Below are positions 12,518 to 62,843 of a stretch of 64,000 nucleotides of DNA, one piece after another. The stretch comes from Pythium myriotylum (lineage: Eukaryota; Oomycota; Peronosporomycetes; Pythiales; Pythiaceae): the NCBI GenBank assembly GCA_023091665.1, contig JALJCQ010000015.1, positions 2,294,001 through 2,358,000 of the forward strand, read 5' to 3'. The position numbers and the translations under genes are program-made. The notes under the pieces are model-generated. The model saw only the letters and a program-made list of their open reading frames with translations, did not search any database and was not told where the DNA came from. How positions within the stretch are numbered: the first letter of the stretch is position 1; every line of letters starts with the position of its first letter.

Positions 12518-12680
12518 CGGGATGAAGTTTTGCGCGTTTGCGTGCCTTTCTCCTCATCTCCGACTCTTCTTCCTTTCTTTTTCCTCTCACCGCCATCAGA
12601 TGGGCGTTCATACCACCCGTGTGAGCTTCGACAAGTGTACTGTACCGTACTGAAGTGCAGCCGACAAACCGCGTCTCCAA

Positions 12681-12745
12681 CTGCTCCCACTCTTCCATAT
12701 TTTAATATGGAAGAGTGGGAGCAGAATGCTATTAAAATAGCATTC
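12681..12745. repeat. Two adjoining perfect hairpins
   Basis: 12681-12724: 21-bp arms with a 2-nt TT loop, beginning CTGCTCCCACTCTTCCA. 12724-12745: 10-bp arms GAATGCTATT/AATAGCATTC with an AA loop. The two share base 12724. The corresponding flank of metalloprotease copy 1 lacks them, so they arose after the duplication. Confidence 0.95.
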
Positions 12746-22829: not shown

Positions 22830-22910
22830 ATGGACGCGGACGTTCGACGCCGACGTCTCCTCTTGCTTGTCGAGTTACACTCTATCACTCTAGCCGCTTT
22901 GGATGGCGGA
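22830..22910 (+). pseudogene. 5' piece of an ORF interrupted by G1
   Basis: ATG at 22830 starts MDADVRRRRLLLLVELHSIT and continues LAALDGG to the G1 insertion point. Removing G1 and one copy of the CGGA duplication joins it in frame to QRERSRQLVCRNH at 36758. The family is unrecognised. The arginine/leucine-rich start is reminiscent of PIF/Harbinger transposases, but this is a guess. Confidence 0.4.
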
Positions 22911-24096: not shown

Positions 24097-24121
24097 ACTG
24101 GTGCGTATGCCAGGAGCTGGT
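24097..24121 (+). other. G1 putative primer-binding site overlapping the gag start
   Basis: Starting next to the LTR, ACTGGTGCGTATGCCAGGAG is identical to the same position in G2 (49178), although flanking gag sequences differ. TGG two bases in matches the usual complement of a tRNA CCA end. The primer tRNA was not identified. The gag ATG (24107) lies inside the block. Confidence 0.5.
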
Positions 24122-26677
24122 AAAGGTCACGTGAGTGCATCCGCCATGAGTACGTCTGATCCTAAGCCGGTGTCTGAAGCTGAAGATCTACGGAGCAAGG
24201 CAGGCGCCGAGGGTGCCGAACGCCGGCGTGAAGCCGGCAACCGAGGTCGGTCCGCAACCGACCTCTTGAGTCGCTTGACCATGTTCAGCGACGACGAGGA
24301 AAAAGAAGAAGAAGAGAAGAAACCGGCACGCGATGATGAAGAGAGCTTCCATTCGGTTAGCGACGGCGAGCGTGTCAAGTCGAGCCAACGAGCCGGGAAG
24401 GGCGCGAGTGCTCGGTCTGAGAAGGCTGGCGACAGACCTCCCTTGAGGAAGTCGTCATCAAAGCCGGAGGCCGGTGGTGCTCGAGGTCGAGAACTGGGGC
24501 GAGACCGTGCAGGGACGCCAGACACGGCGAGCGAGTCCGGCGTGAAGTCCAAGGGGCGCAGCGCTAAGCGCGCGCCGAAGTCGCAATCCGGCACCAAGTC
24601 GTCTTCCAGAGCCGGTCGGAAGGACCCAGTGACTCCATCCAACGCACCCGCTGCGGCGTTAACCAACGCTGAGCGCTTCGAAGTGCGCAGTCTCGTTGAC
24701 CACTGGGTCCAAGCCGGCCGTGGGCGCCAGTCTCCTAACCCGGTCGGCCGAGCTGTGAGCACGCCGCCGGAGCTGGTCCCGCTCGCTCAAGATGTGATGG
24801 AGAAGTGTCATGAACCGGTGTCATGGTTGACTGAATTCGGCGTGGCTCACGAAGGAACCCCCGCTGGTGTCCGTATGGACTTGTTCAAGTTGGTCGACCG
24901 ACCTCTCGACATGGTTGAGAGGATTGCGGTGTTTCAGTCGGCTCTCTGGCAGACTGGCTATTCATTCATGAACCTTGTGCCATCCGCTCAAGCCGGCTCA
25001 TCACTTCGTCTAGTCGGCCTGCTCGACGTTGAAGTTGAATCAGAAATCAGCTTCGCCATGGTACTTCTACACGTCGAGACGGAAGCGTGGATCGAACACC
25101 GGTCGCGCAACGCGTCCCGCCAAGTTGCCCGATCTCAAGCAGAACCCGCTCTACGCGCGGTGCGTATCACCGCAGAGCCGGGATCTCCGTCAACGCTACT
25201 GGTAACCCGCTCCGAAGATGCCTCTGATGCATCCGGCCACTCGCCAAGCATGCAGTCGACGCGACTGAGTTCGCCCGACCATCGCCGCGACTGGGCACGC
25301 CGTGCACAACCAGTCGAACAGGGGTGTCAGGTGGTCCCACCGTCGATCCCGGTCTCGCAGGTGGTGCATCAGCATCAACCGCCTTCGTGCTACGAGGATT
25401 CGATGTTGTCGGCAAGTGCAGCCGGGGTTCGTGGACAGGTTCAAGCCGGCAGAGTTCTGCCAGCAACGCCTCCAGTCGGGTTTGCTCAGGCTCCGCAACC
25501 GGGCACGACGCGTCTGGAACAGCCGGGCAATCTCCATTACGCTGCTGGAAGTCAGTTGCATGCTCCGCTTGTGGTTCAGAGCCGGCCATTCATCTCGCCT
25601 GACGCTGTCGAACCGTTCGACGGATCCGGCTCACCCAGTGAGCGTCGCAAGTGGTTGGAGCGCTTGGTCTACGTGTTCAGCTACTACTCTGACGAAGAGA
25701 AGTGCAAGTACTTCCGGATGTTCGTGAAGGGAGCCGGCGAACACTGGTTCGACCAGCTCGAACGACCAGTGCGTTACAACTGGGTCGAGTTGCTCGACGC
25801 GTTCCGAGCCGAGTTCTGCGAGTCGCGTGACTCACCGGCCGAGCGTTACTACAACGCTAAGCAGAAGCGTCATGAGTCGCCGCGCGATTATCTGTGGCGC
25901 TACAACGCTCTGGCCAAGAAGGCACGCGTCCGACTTGTGAGCCCAGACGACCTGCGACCACATGTGAACCGGTTCATCCGTACGCTCTCCGACCCCGATA
26001 CTCGGCATGCGCTAGCCGGCAGGTCATTCAGTACGCTGAAGAAGCTCGACCAGACGTTGCTGGACCTCGAGGACCAGTCGGCTCAGCCGGCATATCCGGC
26101 ATCTCGTCCGCGAGCCAGGTCCGAGGAGCGTAACCAAGTGTCGAACCGGCAGCCTGCTCGTGTGTACTACACGTACGACGACGATGAATACCGCGAGTTG
26201 GCTTCACGAGCCAGGCAGCGCCCGATGGTTCGCTTCGAAGATCCACCGGATGACGAGTGCAGCGAGGAGTGGCATGACCGAGCTGAACCGGTCTTCCAAG
26301 TCGTTGTCGACCGGTCTCGCGACCGTGGTCGACCTTCTCAGTCTTCTTCCGACTGGCGTTCTAGCCGGTCATCCTCACCCAGGCCAGGTCCCCGTGACCC
26401 AAGTCCAGGCCGTGACGACTCCAAGTGCTACGAGTGCGGTGGTACCGGTCATTGGGCCCGCGATTGCCCAAACCGTACCCCGTGCACGCTCTGCAAGCAA
26501 CTGGGCCATTCGGCAGACAACTGCTGGAAGCAGTGCCCCGCTTGCCAGAAGGTGCATGCTCAAGGCCAGTGTGAAGTCACACGAGCTCTGGAAGGCCTCA
26601 AGTCCTGGTCGAAATCTGCTGAGAACCAGTCCGCAGTTGGCACCATGCCGGCGGCGGTTCTGCAGTATTTAAACTAG
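24107..26677 (+). CDS. gag: G1 Gag polyprotein
   Basis: ATG at 24107 (MPGAGKGHVSASAMSTSD) is chosen because it is the first ATG after the LTR and matches the G2 start; the open frame upstream runs into the LTR. The N-terminal 200 residues are charged and disordered (DDEEKEEEEKKPARDDEE). The retrotransposon-gag domain covers about bases 25600-26080: FDGSGSPSERRKWLERLVYV, GAGEHWFDQLERP, FRAEFCESRDSPAERYYNAK. A CX2CX4HX4C knuckle (CYECGGTGHWARDC) follows, then a second cysteine cluster (CTLCKQLGHSADNC, CPACQKVHAQGQC). The frame is intact and ends at TAG 26675, directly behind the slippery heptamer. Gag forms the particle and binds RNA. Confidence 0.92.
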   Translation: MPGAGKGHVSASAMSTSDPKPVSEAEDLRSKAGAEGAERRREAGNRGRSATDLLSRLTMFSDDEEKEEEEKKPARDDEESFHSVSDGERVKSSQRAGKGASARSEKAGDRPPLRKSSSKPEAGGARGRELGRDRAGTPDTASESGVKSKGRSAKRAPKSQSGTKSSSRAGRKDPVTPSNAPAAALTNAERFEVRSLVDHWVQAGRGRQSPNPVGRAVSTPPELVPLAQDVMEKCHEPVSWLTEFGVAHEGTPAGVRMDLFKLVDRPLDMVERIAVFQSALWQTGYSFMNLVPSAQAGSSLRLVGLLDVEVESEISFAMVLLHVETEAWIEHRSRNASRQVARSQAEPALRAVRITAEPGSPSTLLVTRSEDASDASGHSPSMQSTRLSSPDHRRDWARRAQPVEQGCQVVPPSIPVSQVVHQHQPPSCYEDSMLSASAAGVRGQVQAGRVLPATPPVGFAQAPQPGTTRLEQPGNLHYAAGSQLHAPLVVQSRPFISPDAVEPFDGSGSPSERRKWLERLVYVFSYYSDEEKCKYFRMFVKGAGEHWFDQLERPVRYNWVELLDAFRAEFCESRDSPAERYYNAKQKRHESPRDYLWRYNALAKKARVRLVSPDDLRPHVNRFIRTLSDPDTRHALAGRSFSTLKKLDQTLLDLEDQSAQPAYPASRPRARSEERNQVSNRQPARVYYTYDDDEYRELASRARQRPMVRFEDPPDDECSEEWHDRAEPVFQVVVDRSRDRGRPSQSSSDWRSSRSSSPRPGPRDPSPGRDDSKCYECGGTGHWARDCPNRTPCTLCKQLGHSADNCWKQCPACQKVHAQGQCEVTRALEGLKSWSKSAENQSAVGTMPAAVLQYLN

Positions 26678-32966: not shown

Positions 32967-35537
32967 TCAAATGTGAGACGCACGGTTCCGCGACGGTCGG
33001 AAAATGAAGTCGGGTCCAGGAGTGCCGGGTGTCGCTTGGTCCAACGGGAACGGGACGTAGCTTGGATCGTTCCACGGCGCCGGCAGCTCCCAGCACCGAC
33101 CGCCGAGCCGGTCTATGATCTCGAGCTGACCTGGAAGGAGAGCTTCCACGAAGCGACCGGGCTGGCTCGCCCAGTAGCACCGGATCGGTTCTTCCTCGTC
33201 CAACCTGCGGAGTTGGTCAATCGCGGAGTTCCCCGGTCCGAACGGCTCCAGTGCCCACACGCAAGGCTTGGCGGGCTCGGTCCACAAGGCGGGCTCGCTC
33301 TGAAGGTATGCAGTGACGGTGTCGGCAGGAGCTTGCTGGCTGAGGGCTTGGGACTCGCGCCGGAGGACCCGCTTGAGCTCTTCCCGGTTCGCGTACAAGT
33401 CGACCCACGCCGGGTCGATGCGAGCAGACGGCTTCTTCGCTAGAAAGAGCCAGTGAGTCAAAAACCAGAGCGCCTGCCGGTTCTCGTACTGGAACTTCAA
33501 CCGAGCGTCGAGATAGTTGGCTTGTTCTTCGGAGTCTCGGTCGGGTTGTGCAGGAAGTAGAACAAGACTCGCCGGAAGTACATGTCATCCCACGGGCGGG
33601 TAGCAAGAAGAGCGCGAACCTCCCGAAGACCCTCAGCGGTGCAATATTGATCGAGTATCTGACTGCCCTTCAACTTGACCGGTTCGTAGTTCGGGAAGTA
33701 CGGCGTCTGCCCGGGTATCCCCTGCGTGGGCTGCCCGGCGAACGTGATCCTGTGTCTCTCAACGGGCTGATCATAGTGGAGAACCGAGCTAGTCGACCGG
33801 GTGGCACTCAGCGGGAACGGAGACGCTGCGAGCTCGCGGAAAGAGCGCGAGGTCGCCTGATCCGGTGGGAACCGGATCGGTTCCTTGAACCACGAAGCCA
33901 ACACCTTGTTCGGGAGACCTGGTACGCGTCGACAGCGTCAGAAGCCGGCGTTGATCTGGTGCTGCTGCTCGCTGGCGCCGGTCTGCTGCTTGGAGTGCTC
34001 GCCCTCCCGGTAGTCGAGCCGGTTTGAGGGACCACAGCTGCACCGCTTGGATCACCTTCGTCTTCGTCAGAGATCGCTTGAGCCAGGAACTGAGTCAACT
34101 GCGCGTCGTACTTCGCGCTCAAGGCCATCTGCGCCGTCGCATCTTGTGACGCCTTCCGAGCCTTTCTGGAGCCGGTACCCGCGAGCGACGCCTCCAGCAA
34201 CGCGTCCTCCAGCGCCTCGTCCACCGACCGAGTTGATCGCGCGCGAGCAGCCGGAAAACCATCGAAAGCGTCTGGTATCTGGTTCAATGCGAGCACTGGC
34301 GTGGACGGAGCCGAAGATGAAGCAGCGGCGACCATGAACTGGGTCGGCTGGAGCGACCTCTGGTCGTTCAGTGCACATGCCCTGACCAGTTCCCACCAGC
34401 GTCGGGGATCGCCAAGGGCCGCCGAGTTCGTCCAACAAAACTCGTAGACGTGCTCGGCCTGGGCCCGCGGAAGTCGGTTGTCCGGTATTTGAACTTGCTC
34501 GAGGGCGTCGACGCGCCTCTTCAACTCGGCTGTACGGCGCTCCAACTCTCTGTTTCGATCCTCGAGCTCTGCAACCCGGCTCCGTGCCTCCTTCAGCTCT
34601 TGTTCCTGGTTTGTGAATCGAGTTTGGGCATGCTGAAGCTCACTGTGGAGCTCGCCCACGCGCACCGCCAAGCCCGTCTTGGTAGTCTCAAGGTTGATAG
34701 CGAAGCCCCTCAAGTCCTCGACCCGGTTCAGCAGCCGCTGACAATCACGGCACCCGGACGACGGCCGGTTCTCGAGATGCCTCGCGCGTGCCTCCTGCGC
34801 TCGGAGCCTACCTTCGAGCATCATGATTGTGGTCGACCGGGGGTCGTCCTTCGTCAGCGAGCTGGTCTCGCGCACGTGCGATGTCGGCCAGCGTCGAAGC
34901 CACGTGCGACAGCCACGCGTTCGACCGCGCCGTGCACACCACGCGCTCGAAGAGGCGCTCCTCACCGTACATCCCAGCGAGGTTCGCGTATAGCGCCGTC
35001 GCCTTCGTCACCACGTTCGCGATCCGCTCGGCGCTTGGGTGCTCAGGTGGCGGGCTCCGATCGTCGTGGCGAGAGAGTACGACGCTGTCGACGTCCTCCC
35101 CCTCTCGAAATAGTGAGCGCAGCACGTGGCCAACCGGAACCTCCCAGTTGTCACGATCGTCAAACGGGTGCGCCGAAGCCGGTAGCTGGATTGTCAGCAA
35201 GGCCTCGAGCCGGTCGAAGGACCCGGTCAAGTCGACGTCGACTTGATCCGGTCGCCGCAACCTCTCAGCAACCTGCCGCAAGAGGATACGGGCTGAACGA
35301 ACGGACGCCCTCAACCTCAGGAAACGGATGCGCCTGCCCCGACTCGTCGACTCGCAGCCGGCTCGCCGGCGACGTCCATGGCACGATCTCAGAGCCTGCG
35401 GAACCGGGATCAACACCTCCACGTCGGCCAAGTGTTCAGACGCAATACGTACCAGTCGTGTCCGCCATCTCCGCCGCCTGCGCTGTACTCATGCCCGTTG
35501 CAGCAAGCGCGCTGTTGTGTGCTGCCCCCTCCGACAT
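32967..35537 (-). pseudogene. G1 antisense gene (unknown coiled-coil protein), several frameshifts
   Basis: ATG at 35537 (MSEGAAHNSALAATGMSTAQ) lies 35 bp inside the 3' LTR and points away from it. Coding continues through at least four frames: 35431-34808 (VGHVLRSLFREGEDVDSVVL), 34830-33910 (coiled coil with RVAELEDRNRELERRTAELK, then EHVYEFCWTNSAALGDPRRW), 33904-33500 (YFPNYEPVKLKGSQILD, RPWDDMYFRRVLFYFLHNPT) and 33520-32967 (FQYENRQALWFLTHWLFLAK ... GPDFIFRPSRNRASHI). Order and motifs match the intact antisense ORF of G2. No known family is recognised. The antisense location between pol and the 3' LTR parallels extra ORFs of plant Tat/Grande elements. Confidence 0.72.
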
Positions 35538-35571
35538 CAAGAATGGCGTCGGGGAACAACACAGGGGCGGT
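35538..35571 (+). other. G1 polypurine-tract region
   Basis: ACAGGGGCGG directly before the 3' LTR is a short purine-rich stretch in the place of the plus-strand primer. Confidence 0.4.
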
Positions 35572-36757
35572 TTTGATGTAGCGGGACCGGTTCCCCGCGG
35601 ACTTTCCCGGAATTCCCCATCTCTGTGGGACCGGGAACTGTCAAGAACCACTGTGGTTCTTTAGGATAGGTCTAAAATTGTGTACTACACACTAGCTGGG
35701 TATTTATACCCAGTTTCCGGTTGTGCCACACTAATAGTACCGGAAAACACGGTACCTGACTCTACTGGCGAATATTACCAGCCAGTTAGAGATTTCAGGG
35801 AAGTGTCTGGTATATTACCGGTTCTAGCGGAAAATTACCGTTAGTTTCGTGTGTGCCATTAGCCGTCCGTACTGGTCCGCGAACCCATTGGAATCTGATT
35901 CGCACCCGCCGGTACCTCCTCGATTCTGGTTTAGTAAACAGTTTCTCCCGGTTATAAGAGGGACGGGACAACCGGCCCACCCTCCGTAATAGACTTCCCC
36001 TTTTGCCTTGTCAGCTCCAAGTCTTCGGGCCTACAACAGCAGTTGTATCGGCGGCCACCTCGACATCCCGGTTCTCTAAGGTACTGGCTGTGTGTTGGAG
36101 TGCTCTGGCGGTGTGTACTGCGTGTGTGTGCGTTGCCTTGTGAGTCGTGGAGCCGGTCAAGTGACTGGGTGAAGCGGTTTCCTGGTTCGATAACCTAAGG
36201 GAAGTGGCTCAGGCCACGGACTGAGGGTTTTTATAGTGTGGTGGCGAGCTGTATTAACTGGGAAACCCGGTAATACATTCTATTGTATTTGTCTTTCTTG
36301 CGTTTGCTCCGGTCTGGGACCGGTTGCTTGGACTGGTTGATCGCTCCGTGCCGTCACAGTCCCCCCTTTTCCCTTGCATTTCCGTAGTATCTGAAGGTTC
36401 TGGCAACCGGTCTGCCTACCAAATCAGACAGCATCGGGTAGCGGGTCATTTCCTCTATTACCCAGCTTCTGAAGAACCGTCAAAGGGTACACAACGTGAG
36501 GTGCAAGCCGGGTGAGCATTCTATCTCGCTTGCGCTAGTCATCTTTGGATATCTGCGTGGAGAAAGCTTTGCCCACCTTCTGCGATCGCTTTTTGCCTGC
36601 TATTGCAACCGGGTTAGTCTGTCGTGACTGAACCGGAATCGCAGCAGCAGCAGAGCGGGAGCAGCTAAGTTTGGCAAGTGTTTCCCGGCTCCTAGCGCTA
36701 CCCCTTCGCTAGTTGGAGCCGGGTGGATTGTCAAAAACGTACGACCGCTACATCACA
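35572..36757 (+). repeat. G1 3' LTR
   Basis: Partner of 22911-24096, same length and no difference seen. It would also have to drive or permit the divergent antisense gene starting at 35537. Confidence 0.95.
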
Positions 36758-37726: not shown

Positions 37727-37771
37727 CGTGAGGATACAGTGCCACATTTAATGTGGCACTGTATCCTCACG
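37727..37771. repeat. Perfect 45-bp palindrome
   Basis: 22-bp arms with a single T between them, starting CGTGAGGATACAGTGCCACA. Confidence 0.97.
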
Positions 37772-48189: not shown

Positions 48190-49177
48190 TGTGAAGAAGT
48201 GCCCAGTGCTCACGAGGTCACCTCCCATCCGGCCGTTGAAGACCAGCCCCCTAGGGGGACCCGGCCCACGGGCTGGACCTGGCCGGGACTGATAGGAGTA
48301 GATCCAGCCGTTTGAGTATAATCGGTGGTTGAGGAGGTGGCAGTAGCCACGGCACAGTGTGCCACCCACCTGGTACTGGGTACCATACCCAGCACCGACC
48401 TCGACAACGGCTATCCAGCGCCAGATTCCCAAAAGTAGGTAGTTCTCAGGTCTAGTCACAAAAGTAGGTGTGATCGTTGAGAGCCAGCTTCGCTGGCTCT
48501 CCAAGGGGCTGGCCCCCTTCTAAGAGACTTCGCTTTTCACCGTCAACCCCCCAAGTCGTCGACTCGAGCTCCAGGAAGGACGCGTGGCAACGACACCAGG
48601 TAAGCCTGCGCTAGCGTCAGTGTGCCCCAGTCGATATTGCACGTGAGTCTGGCTGGTTGGCTGGTGGACTCTTGCGGTGTGCGTGTGGAGAGGGGAGTCG
48701 AACCCTTATCAAAGCCCCTGCTAAGGATTCTGGGTCCCCCAGAGTCCAAGGCATTTCATATCCTGCGCCAGTCACCTGGCGCATTTCATATTGGTGTGTA
48801 GTTTATAAAGAGTGTTGCTTGGGATCGAGCGAGTCTCCGTCCCAGGTCAGAGAGCTAGCGGATCGAAGGGAACTTCCGTCCTAGCCCTCGCCTGTATTGT
48901 TGTATTATCTGTATATCGATTTGGTCTGGTCAAGCGGCAGCCCCGCCAGAGTTCGTGTGGGAGGCGCCTCGTGGACGTATTTCCCCTTTACTTAAGCTCA
49001 AAAGGACCACCCCGAAGGAGAGGGACACACAACGTGAGGTACGAAGCCAGAGCTGCGATTATCACAACGGATCGCAGCTCGCTCGGCCTGTGTATATCTG
49101 TTTTTGCACATATATATTTGGCTGGGTCTATACCCCTTTTCTCCATAACTGGCGAAAAGGCATCGCACACCATCACA
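48190..49177 (+). repeat. G2 5' LTR
   Basis: Matches 61856-62843 with offset 13666. Differences seen: 48501 C versus 62167 T and 49170 C versus 62836 T. It contains a perfect hairpin at 48479-48501 (10-bp arms GAGAGCCAGC, loop TTC), followed by a G/C-rich hairpin (48503-48519), and a TATA-like TTTATAAAG at 48802 as promoter candidate. Confidence 0.95.
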
Positions 49178-49202
49178 ACTGGTGCGTATGCCAGGAGCTG
49201 GT
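49178..49202 (+). other. G2 putative primer-binding site overlapping the gag start
   Basis: Same block as in G1 at 24097. The gag ATG is at 49188, again 10 nt after the LTR. Confidence 0.5.
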
Positions 49203-52076
49203 ATTGGTCGCGCGAGTATGTCCACGTCTGGCGCCGCTGACACTAACCAGGCCGAGAAGGTCAAGCCGTTCTCGCTCCTGTCAGATGAAGGCCAGTCGAC
49301 CAGCGTCGGAGAAGTGTCTCAGTATCCGGAAGCCGCCGACCAGCCTACGACCCGCCCTAGCGTTCGAGGAGCTAGCCGGCGCCAGCAAGTCGCCGGAAAA
49401 ATGGGACATACATCCACTGTTCCCCGTCGTACGCTCATGCTGGACGATGATGAGGAGAAAGATCCTTCCGACCCGTCAACCGCGCGGCGGACCAGCCCGC
49501 GAAAAGGAAGTACCGAGTATGGTTCTCCCCGAGCTAGCATCAGCAGTCTCGACCTGGGAGGCACGACCTCGAGGAGCCGGAAAACCAAGCCCGGCCTCCA
49601 GGAGCAAGACGAAGCGCCCACGAGCCGGTCGAAAGCTAAGAAGAACTCTGGAGGACAAGCACGAGGCCGCGGAAGCAAGGCCGCAGCTGGGAAGTCATCG
49701 AGCACCAGCTCGACTGAAGAAGGAGCCAAGTCGCGAGCAAGAGCGGGGACGACGGCCCCAGACACCGGTGGCCGGGCCTTACCCTCCCCCGACGACGAGC
49801 TAAAAGAAACTTCAGCCGTCAGGAGCGGTCGATCCAAGATCCACGACTCTTTCGTGATTCAAGAGTGCGTCGACATCTGGACTCACGCACCGGAAGATCG
49901 CATCTTACCCCGAGAGGCTGGGTCCCCCAACCTCGGGCCTAGGCAAGTCATCGAGCGAAGTTCTGACGTCCTGGACAAGTTCCACGAGCCTGGTTCCTGG
50001 CTAAAGTTGTTCGACCTCATCAGCACGACGAACCCGTTGTCGCCACAGATGGTGCTGTATGTCATCGCCCTGGAGGACATGTCCGGTATCGAGATGCTAT
50101 CGCTGCTCCAGTCAGCCCTGTTCGAAGCTGGTTACTCGTTTATGAATCTAGTCCCTGCTGCACTGCGCCAAGCCCCCGAGCTGGCCAGATTGGATCTTCT
50201 TGAAGTCATGAGCAAGGTCCGGTCGGCACGGTATCTGATATCCATGGAAGTAAGAGAGTGGATCAGGTTCCGAAGCATCCGGCCGGAACAACGCTCACCG
50301 ACAGTCTCGTCTAGGTCTCCAGTTGATGTGTACGCCATGCGTAAGCCCGAGTCCATACTGAGCTCGAGTGACGGTATCCCAGGCCAACAGTCAAGCCTCA
50401 GAACTAGTCAGTTCTCGTTCTTGGCGCCGCAGGCGCGTTCGCGCGCAACGACGGAACTAGGCCAACACCCGTCAGACCCGTCTATGAGTCAGAGCCTCGC
50501 GTTTGGCACAGCTCGTCCCGAAGCTCAGCCGCAACGGCTCGTTGATCCGACTCATTACCGTTTCCAGCAACCTTCGGTCGTGCCAGCGGTTTCAGCCCCG
50601 CTCGCTTTTAGGGCACATAGACAACAGCCCGTGCAGGTGCAGCCGGTACCGGCTTTCATGGACTAGTCGCATCAGGCTCCCGGCGTCTCTTTTCAGGTCA
50701 ACCCCGCCCCGGCTTTTCATGCCGACGCTTCTGTTTACCTAGGATCTGGAGCTGGCGATCGTGCCGGGGAGCTCGCCTCGGGTAGGCCGACACCACGTCG
50801 AGCGGATACCCAGGCAGCATCCGCGCCGATTTCAGTCCCGTCCTCGGCTCATGCGGAGGTGTGGTCAGCCGGACGTCGTGCGAACGACGCAGGTGGGCGT
50901 GGTGCGGTCCATGCGACATCTGAACGTAGCGCCATCGAGCGAGGATCCGCCCCAGCAAGCGTTGTTGCGCCACCCAGTCAGCCGAGCCAGTCGGTGCCCC
51001 GGCCTTTCGTTCCCAACCGCTATCTGGATAAGTTCACCGGCTTGGAGTCACTGGCCGACCGCAAGCTCTGGTACAAGGAGTATGTCTATTTGGTAGAGAG
51101 CGGCTACTGGACTGACGCTGAGAGGTGTCGGAACATCGAGCTATACCTTCGCGGCCCAGCCGAGGCCTGGCTCCAGCAGCTAGGCGCTGCCCGCCGAGTT
51201 TGGACTTCGTTGAGTGCAGCATTCCAGAATGAGTTCTGTGTCTCCCGAGGATCTCCGTTCGAGAAATACTTTGGGCTGACCCAGCGAAAGGACGAGACCC
51301 CGCTCCAGCATTTATGGCGACTAAATGCGGCAGCCGTCAAGGCCCGTATCCCTCTGGCGAGCTCAATCGATCTCAAGAACCACCTGGATCGTTTTATCAA
51401 GAGCCTGTCGAGCGAGAGCGCCAGGAACGCGTTCAGAGGACGCTCGTACGACTCCTTGGCCCAGATCGAAGATGCAGCGAGGGATCTAGACCGCGATGTG
51501 GACCGAGACGATTATCGTCGATCTAGCCGGTACCAGGATCGTGACCGTGAGCGTGAACGCTCGATCGCAAGATCCGCCTCCGTCTATTACGCCTACGAAG
51601 GTGATGACAACGACGAGGATGCGGACTGGGGGCTGGCGGACGACCGCCGCGTCCGTTTTGACGGCGACGAACCTGGCGACTGCCACACGGAGTCTGTCTA
51701 CCAAGCGTCTGGACGGGTCCAGAGCCAACAACAGGGGCGGTGGAGGCCTGGGAGTCAAAGCCCGGGTCGCCACGCGGGTGCCCCTGGCTCAAACGGTCGC
51801 CCTCGATCCGGTCTAAGTGTTCAGAGTCCTCGTGGGCCGAATTGCTTCAATTGCGATGAGCCTGGTCATTGGGCAAATGATTGTCCGCAGAAAGGTTTCT
51901 GCTCCCTGTGCGAAGCTCCAGGTCACCGCTCTGAGTCATGTCCGAAAAGGTGCTCGTTCTGCGACGAAGTCCACGCGCCAGGCGAGTGTGAACTCAAGAA
52001 GGCTCTCAAGTCTTTGCTTAGGAGCGAAACGACGACAAATGCCGCTTCAGCAGGCCAAGTCCAGCCTTTAAACTAG
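49188..52076 (+). pseudogene. gag: G2 Gag polyprotein with one in-frame TAG
   Basis: ATG at 49188 (MPGAGIGRASMSTSG). The frame is open to 52076 except for TAG at 50664 (FMD-stop-SHQAPGV). N-terminal disordered, lysine/serine-rich part; a helical region at about 49840-50280 matches G1 (LFEAGYSFMNLVPAALRQAP). Gag domain about 51010-51480: FTGLESLADRKLWYKEYVYL, RGPAEAWLQQLG, FQNEFCVSRGSPFEKYF. Zinc knuckle CFNCDEPGHWANDC and a second cysteine cluster (CSLCEAPGHRSESC, CSFCDEVHAPGEC). It ends at TAG 52074, directly behind the slippery heptamer, as in G1. Total 962 codons. Confidence 0.9.
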
Positions 52077-52118
52077 GCAGCTCGCCGGGGGTCCGAGGGA
52101 ATCCGGTACGCGTCGAGC
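52067..52118 (+). promoter_or_regulatory. G2 programmed -1 ribosomal frameshift signal
   Basis: T TTA AAC (52067-52073) abuts the gag TAG; six bases later comes a 39-nt structure (52080-52118) that aligns without gaps to G1. The outer stem GCTCG/CGAGC is retained. In the inner stem a T-A pair of G1 is C-G here and an A-T pair is G-T; two further inner pairs are lost. Pol lies in the -1 frame. Confidence 0.85.
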
Positions 52119-55100
52119 TTCAAGTCCCTCCCGCGACACAAGAAGCCCAAGTCATGCATGTGTTTGCGTACGTTGGTAGTGAGGATGCTAATGCCTACAA
52201 CAAGTTGCCAGCCTGTCAAGGTCAAAACGAAGCGCGTTCGTTCCTTGTCTCCGCTGGTGACCCCGCTCCTGATCTGGAGAGAAGCTTTCAGCTCCAGCCT
52301 GGTGAGCGTCGTGGATGGTGGTCTATGCACCCTGAGCCAGTGGGCCAGGCTGGAATCGCCATCGTAAATGGTGCCGTGTGCGACCGTAGGGTCCGCATCT
52401 TACTGGATTCCGGTTCATCTACTAGCATGGTCAGCCTCGACTTAGCTAGGAAGCTGGGACTTCAGCTCAAGTTTGGCGACCGACTCAAAGTCAACGGCAT
52501 TGGCGGCGTCGTGACTTAGGCCACAGCCAGAACCAGAGTTAAAGTGACGCTCGGCATGAGCGTCGCCTATTTTTTGGATCTCTGGGCTGGGAACATTGGC
52601 GAAGGAATCGATCGCCTCCTGGGCCTCGATTTCATGGTTCGAGCAGGGGTCCGCCTCTGTGCTTACGAAGGTTCAGTCCGACTGCCGGACGAAGAGTGTA
52701 TCCCGCCGGCGCAACTGGTCAATGGCCGAAGTTACCAGAGCGAGCGTCAGTCAACACCCGGGAAGACATTTACCTGCCACCAGGTCGCAGTGCGCTGGTA
52801 CCAGCTCGTCCCCATGACAGGAAACTCCAGGTCTGGGCATGCCGCCACGATAATTGGTTGACAACCGTTGTCACTGGATCTGGTGGGCAGTTACAGGCCG
52901 TCCGAGTGACGAATGTGTCATCCCAGCCGATCATGAACCCAGCGTCATCATTCCAGTTGAAGCTCGGCAGTTGAAGCTCGGCTGTAGAAGATTCTCCGTG
53001 GAAGATTCGACATGTGGAAGATTCTCCGTCTGGTTCTGGTTTGAATCCGGAAGGTCACCTGCCGTTGGGTCAGCGATGCGCCAGGCTCAACTCGACAAGG
53101 TATCTCGAGTGGCAGGTGCTGGTCTATGAAGGCTCTCACTCTAGCCGATATATTCGGGCTCAAGACGAATCCATCGACGCCTACAACGCCAGCCTTCCAC
53201 CCGCTGTGGTCAAACCAACCTACGACGCACCAACAAAGATCCTGTCAAGGGGCGAGGTAGAGTTGGTGCCAGGCTCATGTGGTGGTGCGTCGGATATTAA
53301 CGCGCCACCCACAACGTCGGCTGCACTAGTTGCGCCACCCTCGATGTCGACTTTCGAAGTCGCATCACCGCCACCGCAGAGTGTCTTCGTACCTAAATTG
53401 GAGGCTCCAGTTTCTCCTACTGCTTCGGCAAAGCCGTCATTGCCGGCCGAGCTTACCGCTAAGGCGGGATCAGCAGGGGAAGGAGTCGCCATGCTAGCTC
53501 TGGAAGCGCCAGAAGTGGGCGACCCCAACTTGCCACAAGATCGACTAACGGCAGCTGCGCCAGTGACGCCAGCGAACGCCGTGTCATCTCAAGTGGCAAG
53601 CCCAGTGTCACCAAAAGACCCAAGTGACACTGGTCGAAAACTTAAAATGGGCATGAAGCTGGTCCAAGGGCGTGAAACCCGGACCGATAAGCCAACCGAG
53701 CACTTGGCACGCACGTTCAAGCTGCTCGTGACCCAGGAACTCGACTCTGAGGCTGAGGCAACGACGTTCTACCAAGAAGGGATCGACTCCGTCATGCTCG
53801 ACAAGCTTCGGGACCAGTTGGCAGTACTGCCGGATCACATCGAAGTCGACCCTCTTGTAGACATAGCGACGGCTGACGTCGGCGAGCCAGGCTCAACTAC
53901 CCAGGAAGAAGACGACGCGATCCGCCGGTGTATCGAAAAACATCGCTCAGCCTTTCTCGGCTCGGGGAACGCGCTGCCCCCTCCGGCTAGGGGCGTCGCC
54001 TGCGACATCGAAGTCGAACCAGGAACCAGGCCAGTTGCCGAGAAACCCAGGCGAATTAAGTCACACCTGCTTCCCCAAGTCTATGAGCTTCTCAAGAAAC
54101 TCCTCGATGCCGGAATCATCGAGTACTCCGACTCGGAGTGGGCTAGCCCAATCGTCATCGTCATGAAGAAGAATGGCGTCGACATTAGACTCTGCATTGA
54201 CTACCGGCGTGTGAACCAGCTCATTCAGCTGATGAATTACCCGCTGCCGCTCATCGATGACCTCCTCGACAATTTTGAGAAGGCCATGTGGTTCCTGAGT
54301 TTAGACATGGCCAGCGGTTTCTGGGCCGTGCTTATGACCCAGCGGGCCAAGCACATCAGCGCTTTCGTATGTCCACTCGGCCACTTCCAGTGGATTCGGA
54401 TGCCTTTTGGCCTGAAAAACGCTCCGTTGATCTACCAGAAAGTCATTGACAACGCCCTCTGGGGATACGTTCGTCTTCCCCCGCACCTCGAAGCAGAAGT
54501 CGAATCAGAAGTCATACGCGCGCTCGGCCTAGAGCCAGTCAACGAAGTCCAAGCAGCGAAGTCAGCCGCCGAGAATGCCGGGAAGACGGTGTTCGATTTG
54601 AATATTGCCGCCCCAGAGTGTCTCGGCCCGGTGCTAGGACGAAGTTCGTATATCGATGACATTGCCTACGGTGCTCCGACGCTAGGCGAGCTGCTCCAGG
54701 TCTTGGACCAGCTCCTGTATCGGCTGCGATACTGGCAAATATCTGTCAGTCTGCCCAAGAGTTCATTCGGCAAGCATTCGATACAGTACCTCTCTCACGA
54801 AGTCAACCAGGCTGGCATCGTCGCCGCGCCAAAGATCGCGAAAGGATTACTTGATCTACCGTTCCCGACCAGCCTCAAGGCGGTGCAATCGTTCTTGGGG
54901 AGCTTGAACTATTACAACCAGTTCATTGAAGACTACGCAGTGATCGCCAGCGTCTTATACGAGCTGTCCGACGAACGGATCCGCCTGAACGATTCGCTAG
55001 ACCCGGCTCGCCGCGCGTTCGAACTGCTGAAGTCGAAACTCCTGAACGCGCCGCTGCTCAAGCATCCAGATCGCACGAAACCTTTTGTGATTATTCCCCA

Positions 55101-58100
55101 TGCCAATGAGTGGGCAATCGGCGCGGTGCTCGGCCAAGAGCATGACGGCATCATCGCTCCAGTTCGTTTCACTGGACGCACCCTGCATGACGCTGAGTTG
55201 AACTATCACCTGGCAGAAAAAGAAATTCTAGCCCTGCTCAGAGTTCTCAACGTGTATTACACATTAGTTGCTGGCCAAGAGTTGATCGTCTACACGCGTT
55301 ATTCGACTCTCAAGTGGATACTCACGTCAAAATCGGTCCAAGGACGGACACTCCAGTGGGCAGCGCTACTCTCTCCGTGGACGATGGACGTGCGGCGCGT
55401 CGATCGGGACCAGGATGGTCTGGCAGCAATTGTGGCAGCCAGTATCACACCTCGAGAAGTGCTCGACCAGGTCGCAGCCGAACTAGTGCCGTCAAAGGCC
55501 ATGCGCGTGAAGCCAGCTTTGGTAAGCATGGAGATGTTGGATGCCGAATATGAAGGTCTGGTTTTGAGTTTCGACGGTGCCGCCAAGCGCAAGTCGAATG
55601 CAGGAAGTGCGAGTTTTGTGATCTGGAGGTTGCCGGGCTGGCAGCCACTGTTCGCGAAGTCCATTTACCTGGCTGGCGTCGACGTCACTGTCAACGTGGC
55701 CGAGTACACAGGCTTGTTGCAGGGACTCGAGTTCCTGAGGTCGGGGAAATTAGGTGATCCAGTCAAACGTATCGTGGTAGTCGGCGACTCGCGGATCGCA
55801 GTCCAGCAGTGCCAAGGCGTGATCGGCTGCAATCAACCGCACTTGACCCTGCTGCTCGCCCGTTTTCATGAACTTCGAACACAATTCGAATCAGTGGAAC
55901 TCATTCACGTGGTACGTGAGTACAACGGCGCAGCAGACTACCTGGCTGGCCTGACACTACGTTCGGAAGAGACCCGCGTGGTCACTGATGAGGATACGTT
56001 TAACCAGCTCCGTCAGTTCAGCAGGCTGCCCGAACGACTCATGCGCGGCCGCTGTACTGAAGGTGTCGAAGGTCGCGGTGAGACGGCTCAAGGTCGCGGT
56101 GAGACGGCTCAAGAACAAGACGGCACAACTAGGGAACGCGGTGGAGCGACGGCGACTACGAGCGGCACATCCTCAGACCTCCCGGCGTCCGGAAGCGCGA
56201 CAGTTCTACTCGCAGAAACACGCTCGCAACGACGACGCAATGGCTCGAACGCCACTGTGGAAGTGAGGGTGTTGCCTGCAACGCGTCGAAGCCAGCGCCT
56301 CGCTGCGCAAGCCCGAGCGCCCGATGGCCCCGCGTCGCAGCGGAACCCAAGTGACTACGCCGCTGTCGGTCTGCGAGAAAGGGGGAGTGAGCACCTTCTA
56401 GCCCCTTCCTTTCCCGAGGCGCCGAGTCCGCGAAGCTCGACGAACAATGACACCGCTGCAAAGACAGTCCACAGGGCTATCGACGTCGAAGAAGGGCCTG
56501 GCTATGTACCTCCGCCGAGCCAGCAAAGCATGCATGAAGACCGCGAGGAGCCTCGAGACACGACGTTGACGAGCGTCGCTAGAGCCCCGCCACAATCCGA
56601 GGACGATTCCCCGTCCATCCTTAGAGCTGCAGGAAAGCGGAGCTCGCCTGAACAACCGATCGTGCCTGAGAGCTCGGCTCCGCGTCAGGCCCTGGCGCAT
56701 GAGGGCGTTCCCGCATCACCATCGGCATGGCCAGCAGCCCGACCGCCCGACTTCGAAGGGCCCCTCCCGCCGACGTCATCCGCGCTCCTCGACGGGGCCC
56801 CAAGTCGACCGACCAACCTCCCAAGTTCAAGTTCAAGTCCGGGCGCCGTGTCGCGAAGCTACGAAGATTCGATGCCGAGCCAGAGCGCCATACCCGCGAA
56901 TCCCGCTGGCAGTCGCCAGGACCCAGAGTATCACCGACCGTCCAACCGCGAAGGTGTGATATCCCCCGGCGTGAGCCCAACCCCGAAGCCGGCCACAGCA
57001 CGACCGACCGCCTCCGCCTTTCCAACCTCTGGGCGACAGGCGCCGAGCCTCGTTGCCACATTACCTTCCCCCTTGGAAAGCGATGGTGCGAATCAGAGGA
57101 AAGCTGATAACCGCCCGCTCTCTGCACAAGGATCCGGTGGGCGCAACGTTTCTGTTCAAGGTTCCCGCGACATGAGAACACATTCACCCATTGTCAGTGG
57201 AACGCGCTCAATTCCGTCAGCGAGCGACCGGGCAGCATTAGCCTCGTCGCTGATCAACCAGCGGCGAAGTCAACAAGACGGTGTTGCCGTGGCGCGCGTC
57301 ATCGAAGACCGCGCGCCAACTCGCCCGCCCATCCCGTTGCCGTCAGTAGATGCTGAAGCCCCGCTCGGCTCTCGCAACGCAGGACGCGCCCGCTCTCGGC
57401 TACCCGCCACCGGTTCCAATGACTGCAGCGCCTCAGAACAGGCGCCTCCAACCGCACCCGTTGGCAGCCAGCGCGACGCGCCAAGCCTAAGGGCGCACGA
57501 GCCCGTCGGCCAGACGAGCGCCGCCGTCACAATCAATCCTGTACCCGGCGAAGGATCTCAAGATGCGTTTGAAGGTGCTAACGTGGCGAGGCTTGAGCGC
57601 GTCCGCGCACATCAAGATGCAGATCCGCCCACACGGAAGCTGAGAGCTTTCCTCGCCGGCGACACGCGTGCACTCTCCCGCGATGAAGTTGCCCAGGCGG
57701 CGAAAGTTGCTGACCAGTTTGTTCTGGACGAGCACGGAGTGCTACGATATGTTAGCCTCCGTCCCGGTGCTCGTGAGAAGCCAGCTCGACTCGTGGTCCC
57801 AACCACGCTGCGGAAAGACGTGTTGCATCACTGCCACGTCGAATTTCAAGGTGGCCATCAGGGGATCACGCGTACCTACGAAAGAGTCCGGTCTGAGTAT
57901 TATTGGACCGGGATATACCAGGACGTCGTCCGTTTTTGCTCGAGCTGTGTGGATTGCAGCACCGGAAAAGGTCTCCCAGCGAATCCCGGCCCGTCTCCCG
58001 GCAACATCCAGCCGGAGTATCCGTTTCACGTCGTCTCTATGGATTTTGTACTCCCATTGCCGCCGTCTGAACAAGGGGGCACGGCGTTGCTACTCTTCCA

Positions 58101-59238
58101 GTGCATGTTCACTGGCTTCGTGATGTGTAAAGCGATGTCGGACACCAGCGCGCCAGCCGTCGCCAGGGCGTACGATGAGGTAGTCTTCCAGGGATTCGGC
58201 GCCAGTTCTGTTATTAGACACGACCAAGACCCGGTCTTCATGAGTGAAGTGTTCGCCCAATTCCGGTCCATGCTGGGGAGCCAGCAGCGCGCCACGTTGG
58301 CCTACCGGCCTCAAGCCAACGGCCAACAGGAACGCTCAGTCCAGACTGTGGCGCGCAGCATCAAGTCCTACGTCATGCGACCAGGTCAAGACGACTGGGA
58401 GGACGTGGTATATCGATTAATGTTTGCGATTAACACGTCAGTGGACGCGACACGCAGAGACACGCCATTCTTCCTCGCCCACGGTTGGGACGCCAAGTCG
58501 ACAGTCGCCGCGATGATTGCGCAAGCTCCGCGGAAGCGCACAGCCGACCGAATGCGTGCCTACGTCTGGCGGATCAAGATTCAGCGGGAATATCAGTACG
58601 CGCTAGCCTGGGCACGTGATCTCCAAGCGAAGGCAAAGCGCGGCCGAGCCGAGCGTCAAACAGCTGAGTGGGAGTAGCTCCCAGATAGCGTAAAGACCGG
58701 TTTCGAAGTAGGCGACGCCGTCTGGTTGTATCTCGCTCGTGTCAAGCCAGGACTGGCGAAGAAACTTGCGCATCATTGGCATGGCCCTTTCCGGATCGTA
58801 GAGAAGGCGAATGACCACCGTGTACGGCTCAAGACCGAAGGAACGATGTATAAGGTCAACCCGTGGGTTCATATCAGCCGCCTGAAGCCTCGTCTGTTCT
58901 TCGAAGACAGACCAAAGGGCGACTTGGAGCCAGTACCAGAGGACCTAGATTGGGACGCTGCCCTTCTGCCTGAGGATAGTTGGGCCCCCGACGAAGAGGC
59001 GGGTGAGAATGAAATGGAGAAGATACTCGACGTCCGGTGGAACTCGCAGCGCACCAGGTCCGGGAACAAGAAGACGCGCGATTATCTCGTGAAATTTGTC
59101 GGTTACGATGAACCTGAATGGATACCAGTCGCCAAAATCAAGGCCGGCCGCCTGCTGTATGAGTTCGACAACAGTAGACACGCGGAGACCAGGTTTGCAG
59201 CCATGCAATCTGGTGACGGGGAGGCGCTGCGCGACTAG
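52073..59238 (+). pseudogene. pol: G2 Pol: protease, RT, two RNase H domains, integrase, chromodomain; broken
   Basis: Protease: VRILLDSGSSTSMVSLDLAR, then TAG at 52517, a frameshift at about 52700-52735 and TGA at 52972. From 52975 to TAG 58675 the frame is open (1900 codons). RT: IIEYSDSEWASPIVIV, LDMASGFWAV, WIRMPFGLKNAPLIYQ, YIDDIAYG. First RNase H: FVIIPHANEW (catalytic Asp absent), AEKEILALLRVL. Second RNase H: SFDGAAK, NVAEYTGL, GDSRIAVQQ, NGAADYLA. A proline/serine-rich linker of about 530 residues follows. Integrase: HQGITRTYERVRSEYYW, CVDC, MDFVLPLP, HDQDPVF, NGQQERSV. After TAG 58675 (G1 has Gln) the frame continues to the chromodomain EKILDVRWNS, DYLVKFVGYDEPEWIP and TAG 59236. 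Confidence 0.92.
56071..56112 (+). repeat. Tandem repeat, 21-bp period, in the G2 linker
   Basis: GGTCGCGGTGAGACGGCTCA twice, encoding two GRGETAQ units. Confidence 0.95.
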
Positions 59239-59308
59239 CAGCGCCGAGCGGAGATGCTAGCCTCCGCTGCCAAGTGCTAGCGATTACGGGGTGCGAGTCC
59301 CATGTTGC

Positions 59309-59871
59309 CCAGGCTCTTGGCCAGGTCCGCGGTCGCAGCTCCACGGTGCTTTATCGGTCGATGACTGAACGCCAGCGTAAGAAGGTCTATGGCATTGCCA
59401 CACAGAAGATGCTGGAAGCCACGTCGTTCTACCCCAACTATACACCGGCCAAGTCTGAGATGCCGACTCTGCGCGACCGTTTGCTCAAGATCACCGTTGA
59501 GGAGTACCAGGCTATTCGCGAGAAGAAGCCTTGGAACAAGATGTTCGCGAATCGAGTGAAAGCTTTCTTCCTGTCGACACCCGGCGAATGGTCTGAAGAT
59601 CAAGCTCAGGAAGAAAGCTTTCACTCGATTCGCGAACATCTTGTTCCAAGGCTTCTTCTCGCGAATAGCCTGGTACTCCTCAACGGTGATCTTGAGCAAA
59701 CGGTCGCGCAGAGTCGGCATCTCAGACTTGGCCGGTGTATAGTTGGGGTAGAACGACGTGGCTTCCAGCATCTTCTGTGTGGCAATGCCATAGACCTTCT
59801 TACGCTGGCGTTCAGTCATCGACCGATAAAGCACCGTGGAGCTGCGACCGCGGACCTGGCCAAGAGCCTGG
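59309..59871. repeat. Large inverted repeat, 265-bp arms
   Basis: Left arm 59309-59573 and right arm 59607-59871 are reverse complements with no difference seen; the spacer is 33 bp. The arms encode part of the C-terminal domain of the antisense protein (STVLYRSMTERQRKKVYGIA to NRVKAFFLS), the right arm on the minus strand in the gene and the left arm on the plus strand. RNA from either strand would form a 265-bp hairpin. A fold-back assembly error is possible. Confidence 0.93.
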
Positions 59872-61802
59872 AAGATGATCTTGATGAACGAGCGTCGAGT
59901 CTGGCGAGCGGACGAAGGGCGTCGAATCGGTTTGATACAGTCAGCATACAGCTTCACCGGTAGGTCGACAGCGACCACCCACGCATCGTCCTCTTTGCTT
60001 GCTGGAGGCGCCTCCTCCGCGCCGCTGTCCTCAGTCTCGTCGAGCTCGACCGGCCGACTCGCGCTACCTTGGGAAGGACGTGCCTTGCCACCTCGTTCCG
60101 GCGTCCCCGTCGAGGCGTCGCGAGAAGCGTTAGGATAATCTTCGCTCCCTTCTGAGCTGGAAGTCTCTTCGCCCTGGCACTGTTGCGCCAACACCAAGTC
60201 GTTGACCAAGCTCTTCGACCTACGGCTAAGCGTCGAGGGCGAGGGTTGGGCCGACGTCGTCTGGCCTTTCGACTCCCGGTCACTGTCATCGTCGCTGGAA
60301 GCGGGAAGAGTCCGCTTGACGGGCCGCTTGCTGGCAGACCGGTGCTGAGACTTGGCCTCCGCGTCCAAACCTGCCATCGCCGAAACATCTGCGGAGAAGA
60401 GAGGGCGATAAGAAGCCAACGTCGACATCGCCGGCGGCGGAGGTCCAGGTGGCGTATCCAGGCCACTAGCCGTGCACATGAGAGCCATGCCCTTGGGTAC
60501 ATCGGCTGGCGAGCCCGTGACCGCAGCGCGAAGGAATGAATACCACTGGTCAGCTCGTCCCGCCGCACGTCCGTGAACCCAAGTGAATCGGAACAAGTCC
60601 TCCAAGGCGCTGTCGGTCCAGTGAGGGGCCGACACCTGCGCATTCTCCAGCTCCTCTACCTTGCGATGGAGACGCCGAATTCGGTCTTGAGTTCGGTGGA
60701 GATCGGCCCGGAGCTGGTCGCGCTCACTTTCGAGTTCACCCACGCTAGCCCGGAGGCGGTCAACTTCAGTGTCCAGCGTCGTCGCCAGAGTGGCAGCAGC
60801 CTGTTTCTCCTCCCGGGCTCGGAGGAGTTCGGCAGTCGTGCGGTTCACCAAGGCTTGCTCTTCCACTAGCTTATCCTTCGTGCTGAAGAAAAGCTCCTCG
60901 AGTTTCTCGGCGTGGTCAGTGGCGAGTTGGACGTGAGCAAGACATAGCAGGCTGAATTGGTTGTGCTCCGCCAACGACGTGGTTCTCGTACTCCGAAGCA
61001 CGCCCATAGTCATCAGCGCAGGGAGGAGGTTGAGAAGCCGGCGATTAACTTGAAGCGTGTATAGGAGACGCCGAACGAAACCATCAAGGCCGAAGAGTTC
61101 GTCAATGCGGCGGCCGACCAGCTGCGCGCGAAGTAATTTGTCACCGGGATCGCCTAGCTGACGCAGCTGCGAGTCAAGTTCACTGAGTGCGCGCCCGAGT
61201 GGAGATGGTCCATCGCCGTGAGGCTCACGCAAGAGCACCTGATCGAGATCACTAGGCCCGACGGCGTCCGCCAGGTCCACATCGGGGCAGACGCATGCTC
61301 GAAGAAAGGCCGCGGCGTCTCCAACTAGCGGCTGGTCCCAACTCCAGCCGCGCATCAAGACTATGAGGCGAGAACGGAGATCCCGCAGACTTCGCCCCCA
61401 GGCTATGGCGCCCGCAATCGACTTCTCGCCTGGATGCTCCCCAGTCCCCCCGGCGCTGGCATCTTCGGAGTCCTCGTCGCATCGAGGCATCAGTGCTGTC
61501 GTGTGTTTCACCACCTCCTGGAGCTTGGCCGTCAGGTCCGCCAAGAATCGAGCGAGGTCGTCAGGATGCGCGCGGTTAGGATCTGGCCGGAGCTCTCCAA
61601 TCGTCAGCTCGCCGATCTGTTCGTCGTCGTCGGCAGCAGCAGAGTCAGTCTTAGCGTCCGAGTTCGAGCAGAGAGGTGGCCGTTCAACCTTCGACGTGCT
61701 CCCCGCCACCCCGGGCACTGGCTGCGGACCAGAAGGCCCAGCCGGAGGAACGGAACCCGCGCCCTCGTTCGCGACTATGCCACTGCTTGCCGGAGCACTC
61801 AT
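59607..61802 (-). CDS. G2 antisense gene: unknown coiled-coil protein
   Basis: ATG at 61802 (MSAPASSGIVANEGAGSVPP) lies 54 bp inside the 3' LTR. The frame is intact for about 730 codons to the inverted repeat and reads on through it to 59277 (841 codons). Order: disordered N-terminus; helical domain (about residues 90-290: AAAFLRACVCPDVDLADAV, VLLREPHGDGPSPLGRALSE, LRAQLVGRRIDELFGLDGF); coiled coil (about 300-385: ASVGELESERDQLRADLHRT); a W-rich motif (EDLFRFTWVHGRAAGRADQW); acidic serine-rich linker; C-terminal domain (FYPNYTPAKSEMPTLRDRLL, KPWNKMFANRVKAFFLS). Homologous in order and motifs to the broken G1 gene. No family is recognised. It could be a structural or regulatory protein of the element (inference). 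Residues beyond the right arm are probably not native. Confidence 0.75.
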
Positions 61803-61855
61803 CTCTCGCTCGTCTTCGCTGCGCGACCGCGATCTCGAAATGAGGGAAGGGCGGA

Positions 61856-62843
61856 TGTGAAGAAGTGCCCAGTGCTCACGAGGTCACCTCCCATCCGGCC
61901 GTTGAAGACCAGCCCCCTAGGGGGACCCGGCCCACGGGCTGGACCTGGCCGGGACTGATAGGAGTAGATCCAGCCGTTTGAGTATAATCGGTGGTTGAGG
62001 AGGTGGCAGTAGCCACGGCACAGTGTGCCACCCACCTGGTACTGGGTACCATACCCAGCACCGACCTCGACAACGGCTATCCAGCGCCAGATTCCCAAAA
62101 GTAGGTAGTTCTCAGGTCTAGTCACAAAAGTAGGTGTGATCGTTGAGAGCCAGCTTCGCTGGCTCTCTAAGGGGCTGGCCCCCTTCTAAGAGACTTCGCT
62201 TTTCACCGTCAACCCCCCAAGTCGTCGACTCGAGCTCCAGGAAGGACGCGTGGCAACGACACCAGGTAAGCCTGCGCTAGCGTCAGTGTGCCCCAGTCGA
62301 TATTGCACGTGAGTCTGGCTGGTTGGCTGGTGGACTCTTGCGGTGTGCGTGTGGAGAGGGGAGTCGAACCCTTATCAAAGCCCCTGCTAAGGATTCTGGG
62401 TCCCCCAGAGTCCAAGGCATTTCATATCCTGCGCCAGTCACCTGGCGCATTTCATATTGGTGTGTAGTTTATAAAGAGTGTTGCTTGGGATCGAGCGAGT
62501 CTCCGTCCCAGGTCAGAGAGCTAGCGGATCGAAGGGAACTTCCGTCCTAGCCCTCGCCTGTATTGTTGTATTATCTGTATATCGATTTGGTCTGGTCAAG
62601 CGGCAGCCCCGCCAGAGTTCGTGTGGGAGGCGCCTCGTGGACGTATTTCCCCTTTACTTAAGCTCAAAAGGACCACCCCGAAGGAGAGGGACACACAACG
62701 TGAGGTACGAAGCCAGAGCTGCGATTATCACAACGGATCGCAGCTCGCTCGGCCTGTGTATATCTGTTTTTGCACATATATATTTGGCTGGGTCTATACC
62801 CCTTTTCTCCATAACTGGCGAAAAGGCATCGCACATCATCACA
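61856..62843 (+). repeat. G2 3' LTR
   Basis: Partner of 48190-49177. Followed by TCAC and the continuation of the G3 RT codons. Confidence 0.95.

Follow-up and report, generated by a model that had tools for sequence, protein, structure and literature searches.

The window analysed here is a 64,000-nt stretch of the Pythium myriotylum genome that contains the gypsy-type LTR retrotransposons G1 and G2. G2 is bounded by LTRs of 99.8% identity, and TCAC abuts both of its outer ends in the sequence read around the element, which is likely a target-site duplication. Pfam scans of its pol product identified the native RNase H as RT_RNaseH (residues 576-677) and a second RNase H as RVT_3 (residues 743-868), and the integrase core scored below its own Pfam cut-off. 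On the minus strand between pol and the 3' LTR runs an ATG-initiated open reading frame (ORF) of 841 codons (61802-59277), only part of which represents the gene described below. The features of G2 are as follows.

48190-49177, plus strand: 5' LTR, 988 bp, TG...CA ends
49188-52519, plus strand: gag-like ORFs with zinc knuckles and aspartic protease (ORF list, Pfam)
53344-58677, plus strand: pol, with reverse transcriptase, two RNase H domains, H2C2 and integrase core (Pfam)
58846-59238, plus strand: chromodomain-like ORF 3' of the integrase, a weak match (E 0.071)
59277-59606, minus strand: chimeric tail of the antisense ORF (spacer and inverted copy), outside the ancestral gene
59309-59573, no strand: left arm of a 265-nt perfect inverted repeat, the inverted duplicate of gene sequence
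59361-59963, plus strand: mirror ORF of 200 aa, the same peptide on both strands; not a gene
59607-59871, no strand: right arm of the inverted repeat, at the original position
59607-61802, minus strand: antisense gene, codons 1-732, collinear with the sister copy L009
61838-61855, plus strand: purine-rich stretch between the antisense start codon and the 3' LTR, read by eye; likely the polypurine tract
61856-62843, plus strand: 3' LTR, the putative site of an antisense promoter

The longest open frame in region 59240-61855 spans 858 codons; in 500 dinucleotide shuffles of the same region, the longest frame on either strand averaged 199 codons and never exceeded 454. The antisense gene of G2 is 98-99% identical to its sister copies, and G2 is collinear with L009, a sister copy, from the LTR down to 59607. 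Beyond that point G2 lacks 982 bp found in L009 (L009:4597-5578) and has a 299-bp inverted stretch instead, with the two arms of the inverted repeat 33 nt apart. The ORF beyond codon 732 is not part of the gene because what it reads there is gene sequence duplicated in inverse orientation; the plus-strand mirror ORF repeats the antisense peptide owing to the same duplication. The original prediction of an intact minus-strand ORF of more than 700 codons thus stands as to the frame itself, with codons 1-732 as the gene, but not as to its being intact. The gene layout comprises an N-terminal helical region, further helices, an F/W motif, a low-complexity linker and the start of the C-terminal domain; as a result of the 982-bp loss and the inverted stretch, just this start remains, so that the C-terminal domain of the predicted order is incomplete in G2. 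The sister copy L009 (942 codons) and a copy of another subfamily, B (978 codons), carry the gene without the duplication.

The inverted duplication and the 982-bp loss (59309-59871) lie within an element whose LTRs are nearly identical, and the rearrangement resembles the product of a fold-back template switch in reverse transcription. Elsewhere in the window, a 1.83-kb direct repeat (6343-8174 and 10732-12559, 98.1% identity) probably represents LTRs or copies of another element, and near-perfect short palindromes occur at 37727-37771 (45 bp) and 12681-12724 (44 bp). G1 and G2 share a 47-bp stretch (24090-24136 and 49171-49217, 91% identity) that spans the LTR end and the start of the internal region, possibly the primer-binding region; no further LTR similarity was reported.

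Distribution and homology among pol subfamilies

We searched the genome (58.7 Mb, 55 contigs) with the window protein and the antisense proteins of other subfamilies, counting one row per place. Integrase matches, 134 rows out of 522 candidates, were merged to 125 places; since only 134 of the candidates were scored, all place counts are lower bounds. A place was counted as positive if an antisense-gene match lay on the opposite strand, downstream and within 4 kb of the integrase. Among the matches listed, antisense matches accompanied 18 of 24 places with integrase identity of at least 80%, 18/20 at 60-79% and 6/10 at 50-59% (four by short matches), and none was detected at 40-49% (0/57) or below 40% (0/14). 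Same-strand matches numbered three, all from neighbouring elements, and at four of the 42 positive places the match covers just 40-51 residues. Absence from other family members, named in the original prediction as evidence against a gene, therefore describes part of the family: among the matches listed, 42 of 54 places with at least 50% integrase identity carry the gene, and matches are missing from the other 12 and from all 71 of the 71 more distant places. Truncation or excessive divergence may explain the places that lack a match. As more distant pol relatives show no matches, the gene does not belong to such elements in general. Six pol subfamilies, A (including G2), B, C (including G1), D, E and F, have the gene, or else a long antisense ORF in the corresponding position; in subfamily F, matches spanned the whole query at two places and 40-51 residues at four (E 7e-8 to 2e-4). 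Chromo exceeded its Pfam cut-off in one copy each of subfamilies D, E and G.

A different arrangement was observed in the group of L036 (G000:C22:688700-692400; ~48% integrase identity), where the 3.7-kb stretch contained no antisense ORF of 150 codons. A sense ORF (L036:3-1025, minus) lies ~2.5-3.5 kb after the integrase, with open frames of up to 1586 codons in the group and 29 genome matches; Myb/SANT-like repeats were recognized by eye, and Pfam gave no match. At 16 of the 125 integrase places among the matches listed, an ORF of this type follows on the same strand, no more than 4.5 kb downstream. Elements of this group recur at ~21.4-kb spacing in both orientations (G000:C22:647733-803842), like a local array.

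We built homology profiles from the C-terminal parts of the antisense proteins. The ABC profile detected D at 4.4e-34, E at 3.9e-6 and F at 0.0059; the ABCD profile detected E at 5.6e-5 and F at 0.0083, and the ABCDE profile F at 2.4e-4. Shuffled D, E and F proteins, 600 in all, reached best values of 0.042 (ABC), 0.29 (ABCD) and 1.4 (ABCDE). By sequence comparison, homology is clear for subfamilies A-D and likely, if marginal, for F. The antisense proteins have the landmarks PW, HW, EP..W, C.W and EP.R in common, and in the C-terminal domain the other subfamilies are 14-47% identical to the B copy. Where the pol C-terminal region is 57-60% identical, the antisense proteins are just ~20-30% identical. 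Distances among the six subfamilies for the antisense protein and for the integrase C-terminal/chromodomain region were correlated (r = 0.80; 4/720 permutations as high). Beyond same-subfamily copies, only the A+B pairing is clearly common to the antisense and pol trees, and subfamily E is placed differently, without support.

Selection on the antisense frame

Purifying selection maintains the antisense reading frame. Of 93 within-subfamily pairs, 82 were usable (at least 150 codons in common), and all 59 pairs with dS of at least 0.08 had dN/dS of 0.12-0.36 (median 0.24), far from the ratio near 1 that the original prediction had given as a route to refutation. Closer pairs (dS below 0.08; 23 of the usable ones) varied widely, from 0.15 to 3.0 and including one dS of zero, as expected of young copies. 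Between subfamilies dS was saturated, with ratios of 0.25-0.74 and one infinite dS. For comparison, pol had dN/dS of 0.10-0.61 (26 pairs), and the constraint on the antisense gene in subfamily B was about equal to that on pol.

The pattern is specific to one frame. In the nine pairs tested, the third codon position of the antisense frame had more changes than either other position, and the remaining five frames contained stops in both sequences. One sense-strand frame also had a low dN/dS (0.15-0.38), because its wobble positions coincide with those of the antisense frame, but each sequence has 6-25 stops in that frame, so a sense gene does not account for the pattern; another proposed refutation, that the frame is the complement of a sense-strand feature, fails on the same count. 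The census, the frame-specific constraint and the profile homology lend good support to a real gene retained across elements whose pol genes have diverged, and the antisense gene of this gypsy family is very likely real.

LTR proximity and an intron-like stretch in subfamily C

The antisense start codons lie close to the 3' LTR. The distance from LTR edge to ATG is 53 nt in subfamily A (L009, edge 2347, ATG 2401; likewise G2, start codon at 61802), 28 nt in subfamily C (L026 and G1) and about 9 nt in subfamily B (LTR matches end at L015:1974-1977, ATG at 1985). Proximity had been predicted at 35-55 bp for the two window elements; G2 falls within that range and G1 just below it. With start codons ~9-53 nt from the LTR, the antisense mRNA most likely starts inside the LTR. 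Initiator- and TATA-like motifs were sought in the LTRs on the antisense-gene strand, using common consensus sequences and no shuffle control. None was found in the subfamily A LTR and one in that of subfamily B, and the subfamily C LTR has TATAAA 143 nt and CAATTTT 115 nt inside. We regard the promoter-like motifs of B and C as a lead. An LTR stretch of subfamily B (L015:1300-1976) occurs at no fewer than 40 genome places (40 of 221 candidates scored), and solo LTRs of this subfamily probably abound; should the LTR contain an antisense promoter, such copies could set off transcription of adjacent DNA.

The G1 copy represents subfamily C, with the following features.

22905-24096, plus strand: 5' LTR of G1, 1192 bp
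32970-35537, minus strand: frameshifted antisense gene of G1, in several frames
35396-35452, minus strand: 57-nt intron-like stretch, GTACGTAT...TTCCGCAG, counted from the start codon at 35537
35566-36757, plus strand: 3' LTR of G1 (LTR pair comparison)

The frameshifted homologue predicted at 32967-35537 was recovered at 32970-35537 in multiple frames, with pieces matching P0004 at 32970-33551, 33524-33922, 33916-34881 and 34862-34972. Its intron-like stretch contains an in-frame TGA. All nine subfamily C copies, which are related, share this GT-AG stretch of 57 nt in antisense orientation, in three distinct versions only. It falls within codon 29 and its length is divisible by three; an in-frame TGA lies inside it in seven of the nine copies, the other two having no stop. 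The 140 codons that follow are open in 5/6 copies measured, and four copies inspected have no in-frame ATG there. The putative exon 1 (28 codons) shows little constraint, and the N-terminal comparison of C with A scored 45, below the shuffle maximum of 54. Splice donors of the form GTRNGT are usual in oomycetes. Spliced antisense mRNA is the simplest reading that this stretch suggests; we roughly estimate that a fitting donor/acceptor pair would arise by chance about 1 time in 10, and therefore count it as supporting evidence only. Taken together with the start codons, an antisense mRNA from the 3' LTR, spliced in subfamily C, is plausible. Being in antisense orientation, the stretch would be retained in the sense genomic RNA and so survive retrotransposition.

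Protein features, known systems and possible roles

The complete antisense protein has 942-978 residues (subfamilies A and B). Low-confidence models predict coiled-coil-like long helices at codons ~278-387 and an all-helical C-terminal domain (pLDDT 37.5 for the whole sister protein, 52.2 for the domain); a conserved F/W motif lies at codons ~406-426. Foldseek with both models returned no match at E 0.001 or better, including capsid and envelope folds; given the weakness of the models, we give this result no weight as evidence. The original prediction recognized no family, and our searches agree: antisense proteins had no Pfam match above cut-off (among them TRP28, PF04195, and bZIP) and no relative in the PDB. 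Against a set of 5.8 billion proteins, neither the complete sister protein (7994 candidates, words from the first 500 residues) nor the C-terminal region of the B copy (2588 candidates) gave anything at E 0.001, in a word-based search with poor sensitivity for distant relatives at this divergence. A control search with pol gave 1475 relatives, with many Phytophthora proteins among the 120 listed, so that oomycete proteins are present in the database. A viral-contig scan found nothing. No membrane segment was detected in six proteins (highest 19-residue Kyte-Doolittle mean 1.40). Four-residue basic patterns resembling nuclear signals occur in 4/6 proteins and in 30-57% of shuffles; as these motifs are no commoner than in shuffles, we discarded them as evidence.

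Retand, Grande and RIRE2 are members of the plant Tat elements. They carry antisense ORFs of stated unknown function (aORF-3R) between pol and the 3' LTR, a position at which such ORFs are described in plant gypsy elements and the fungal element Boty (PMC7264820, PMC11963269). The Retand ORF nearly always has a TRP28 domain (PMC11963269), Grande gene23 is reported as nuclear with its own promoter (PMC7264820, PMC11963269), and Tat elements have an additional RNase H (PMC10508981). The G2-type elements are likewise gypsy elements with an antisense ORF at this position, kept under constraint in most copies (at least 42 of the 54 listed places; dN/dS). They differ from the plant elements in their chromodomain-bearing pol with oomycete relatives, in a start codon directly at the LTR and in the intron-like stretch of one subfamily. 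The antisense gene thus looks like a plant-type feature with an apparently different protein. Their pol resembles that of Chronos and Archon, with two RNase H domains and a chromodomain after the integrase; both features are reported in the paper on the oomycete Chronos elements (Ustyantsev et al. 2017, PMC5348765). G2 pol has a second RNase H beside the native one, putatively of the archaeal type that marks Chronos, the chromodomain is found in the D, E and G copies (E 0.071 in the window), and Phytophthora proteins make up most of the named pol relatives in the 120 listed. The Chronos scheme in that paper comprises gag, pol and chromodomain, and the word "antisense" is absent from its main text. 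In full-text searches of open-access papers, we found no report of an antisense gene of this kind in oomycetes.

Retroviruses offer a second comparison. HTLV-1 HBZ and its relatives are antisense genes (PMC3185765, PMC10186651), and, as here, HBZ is an antisense protein gene adjoining the 3' LTR with a zipper-like helix (a predicted coiled-coil-type helix in our case); in contrast to HBZ, promoter use and splicing are deduced from sequence here, and no sequence relation was seen. Envelope-like ORFs (PMC7264820) also lie between pol and the 3' LTR, whereas the antisense ORF is on the opposite strand and has no hydrophobic segment.

We give about an even chance to the following reading: an accessory antisense protein gene of a Chronos-like clade of Ty3/gypsy elements (dual RNase H, chromodomain), which runs antisense to pol in the space before the 3' LTR and whose product would be a self-associating regulator, most likely nuclear. 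An antisense promoter within the 3' LTR would transcribe the integrated copy; in subfamily C the mRNA would be spliced, and the antisense-strand intron would pass untouched through the sense genomic RNA and persist through retrotransposition. The protein, with its coiled-coil-like helices, would self-associate and regulate the element, most likely in the nucleus by analogy with retroviral and plant antisense proteins; such a role is our best guess. An accessory protein with a structural or replicative function, such as a particle component, a chaperone or a pre-integration-complex factor, is the less likely alternative to a nuclear regulator, though one to be taken seriously. Long coiled-coil-type helices and an all-helical C-terminal domain, albeit in low-confidence models, would suit it, as would the lack of convincing nuclear signals in the six proteins and a constraint in subfamily B about as strong as that of pol; a transcription unit separate from the gag-pol RNA would, however, ill suit a particle component, which is required in a fixed ratio, and no capsid or envelope fold matched, though the model is too weak to decide.

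Other explanations fare much worse. A recently captured host gene fragment, carried as a passenger in one element lineage, would be consistent with the failure to find relatives that could trace an origin, but six pol subfamilies carry the gene and its divergence follows pol, the antisense matches away from an integrase number four at three places, all partial, and no host copy was seen among the genome matches; we consider it improbable. Marginally less probable still is that the antisense RNA alone acts, as a silencing trigger or a brake on the sense RNA, with the ORF incidental. This has been raised as possible for plant elements (PMC7264820), and gypsy elements of Phytophthora infestans have small RNAs of both strands (PMC3522703), but amino-acid-level constraint specific to one frame and a protein conserved across subfamilies of such low identity in the C-terminal domain argue against it. 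An artefact, whether a frame open by chance or one mirroring some conserved feature of the sense strand, has almost negligible probability: part of the window ORF does stem from the inverted duplication and one sense frame has a low dN/dS, but that frame is broken by its stops in every sequence, duplication-free sister copies reach 942 and 978 codons, and the open frame of G2 is far longer than in dinucleotide shuffles.

Beyond the accessory antisense protein gene itself, we tentatively propose, at somewhat less than an even chance, that oomycete and plant dual-RNase-H elements independently gained both a second RNase H and an LTR-fired antisense gene, the oomycete version being a new family and spliced. 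Element descriptions restricted to sense ORFs miss a gene of up to ~980 codons, and with its nearly identical LTR pairs and several subfamilies this genome suits tests of antisense transcription, splicing and localisation. Plants, a fungus and some retroviruses have already yielded antisense genes in LTR elements; a separate origin in another lineage, if true, would suggest that an antisense protein solves a general problem of dual-RNase-H elements.
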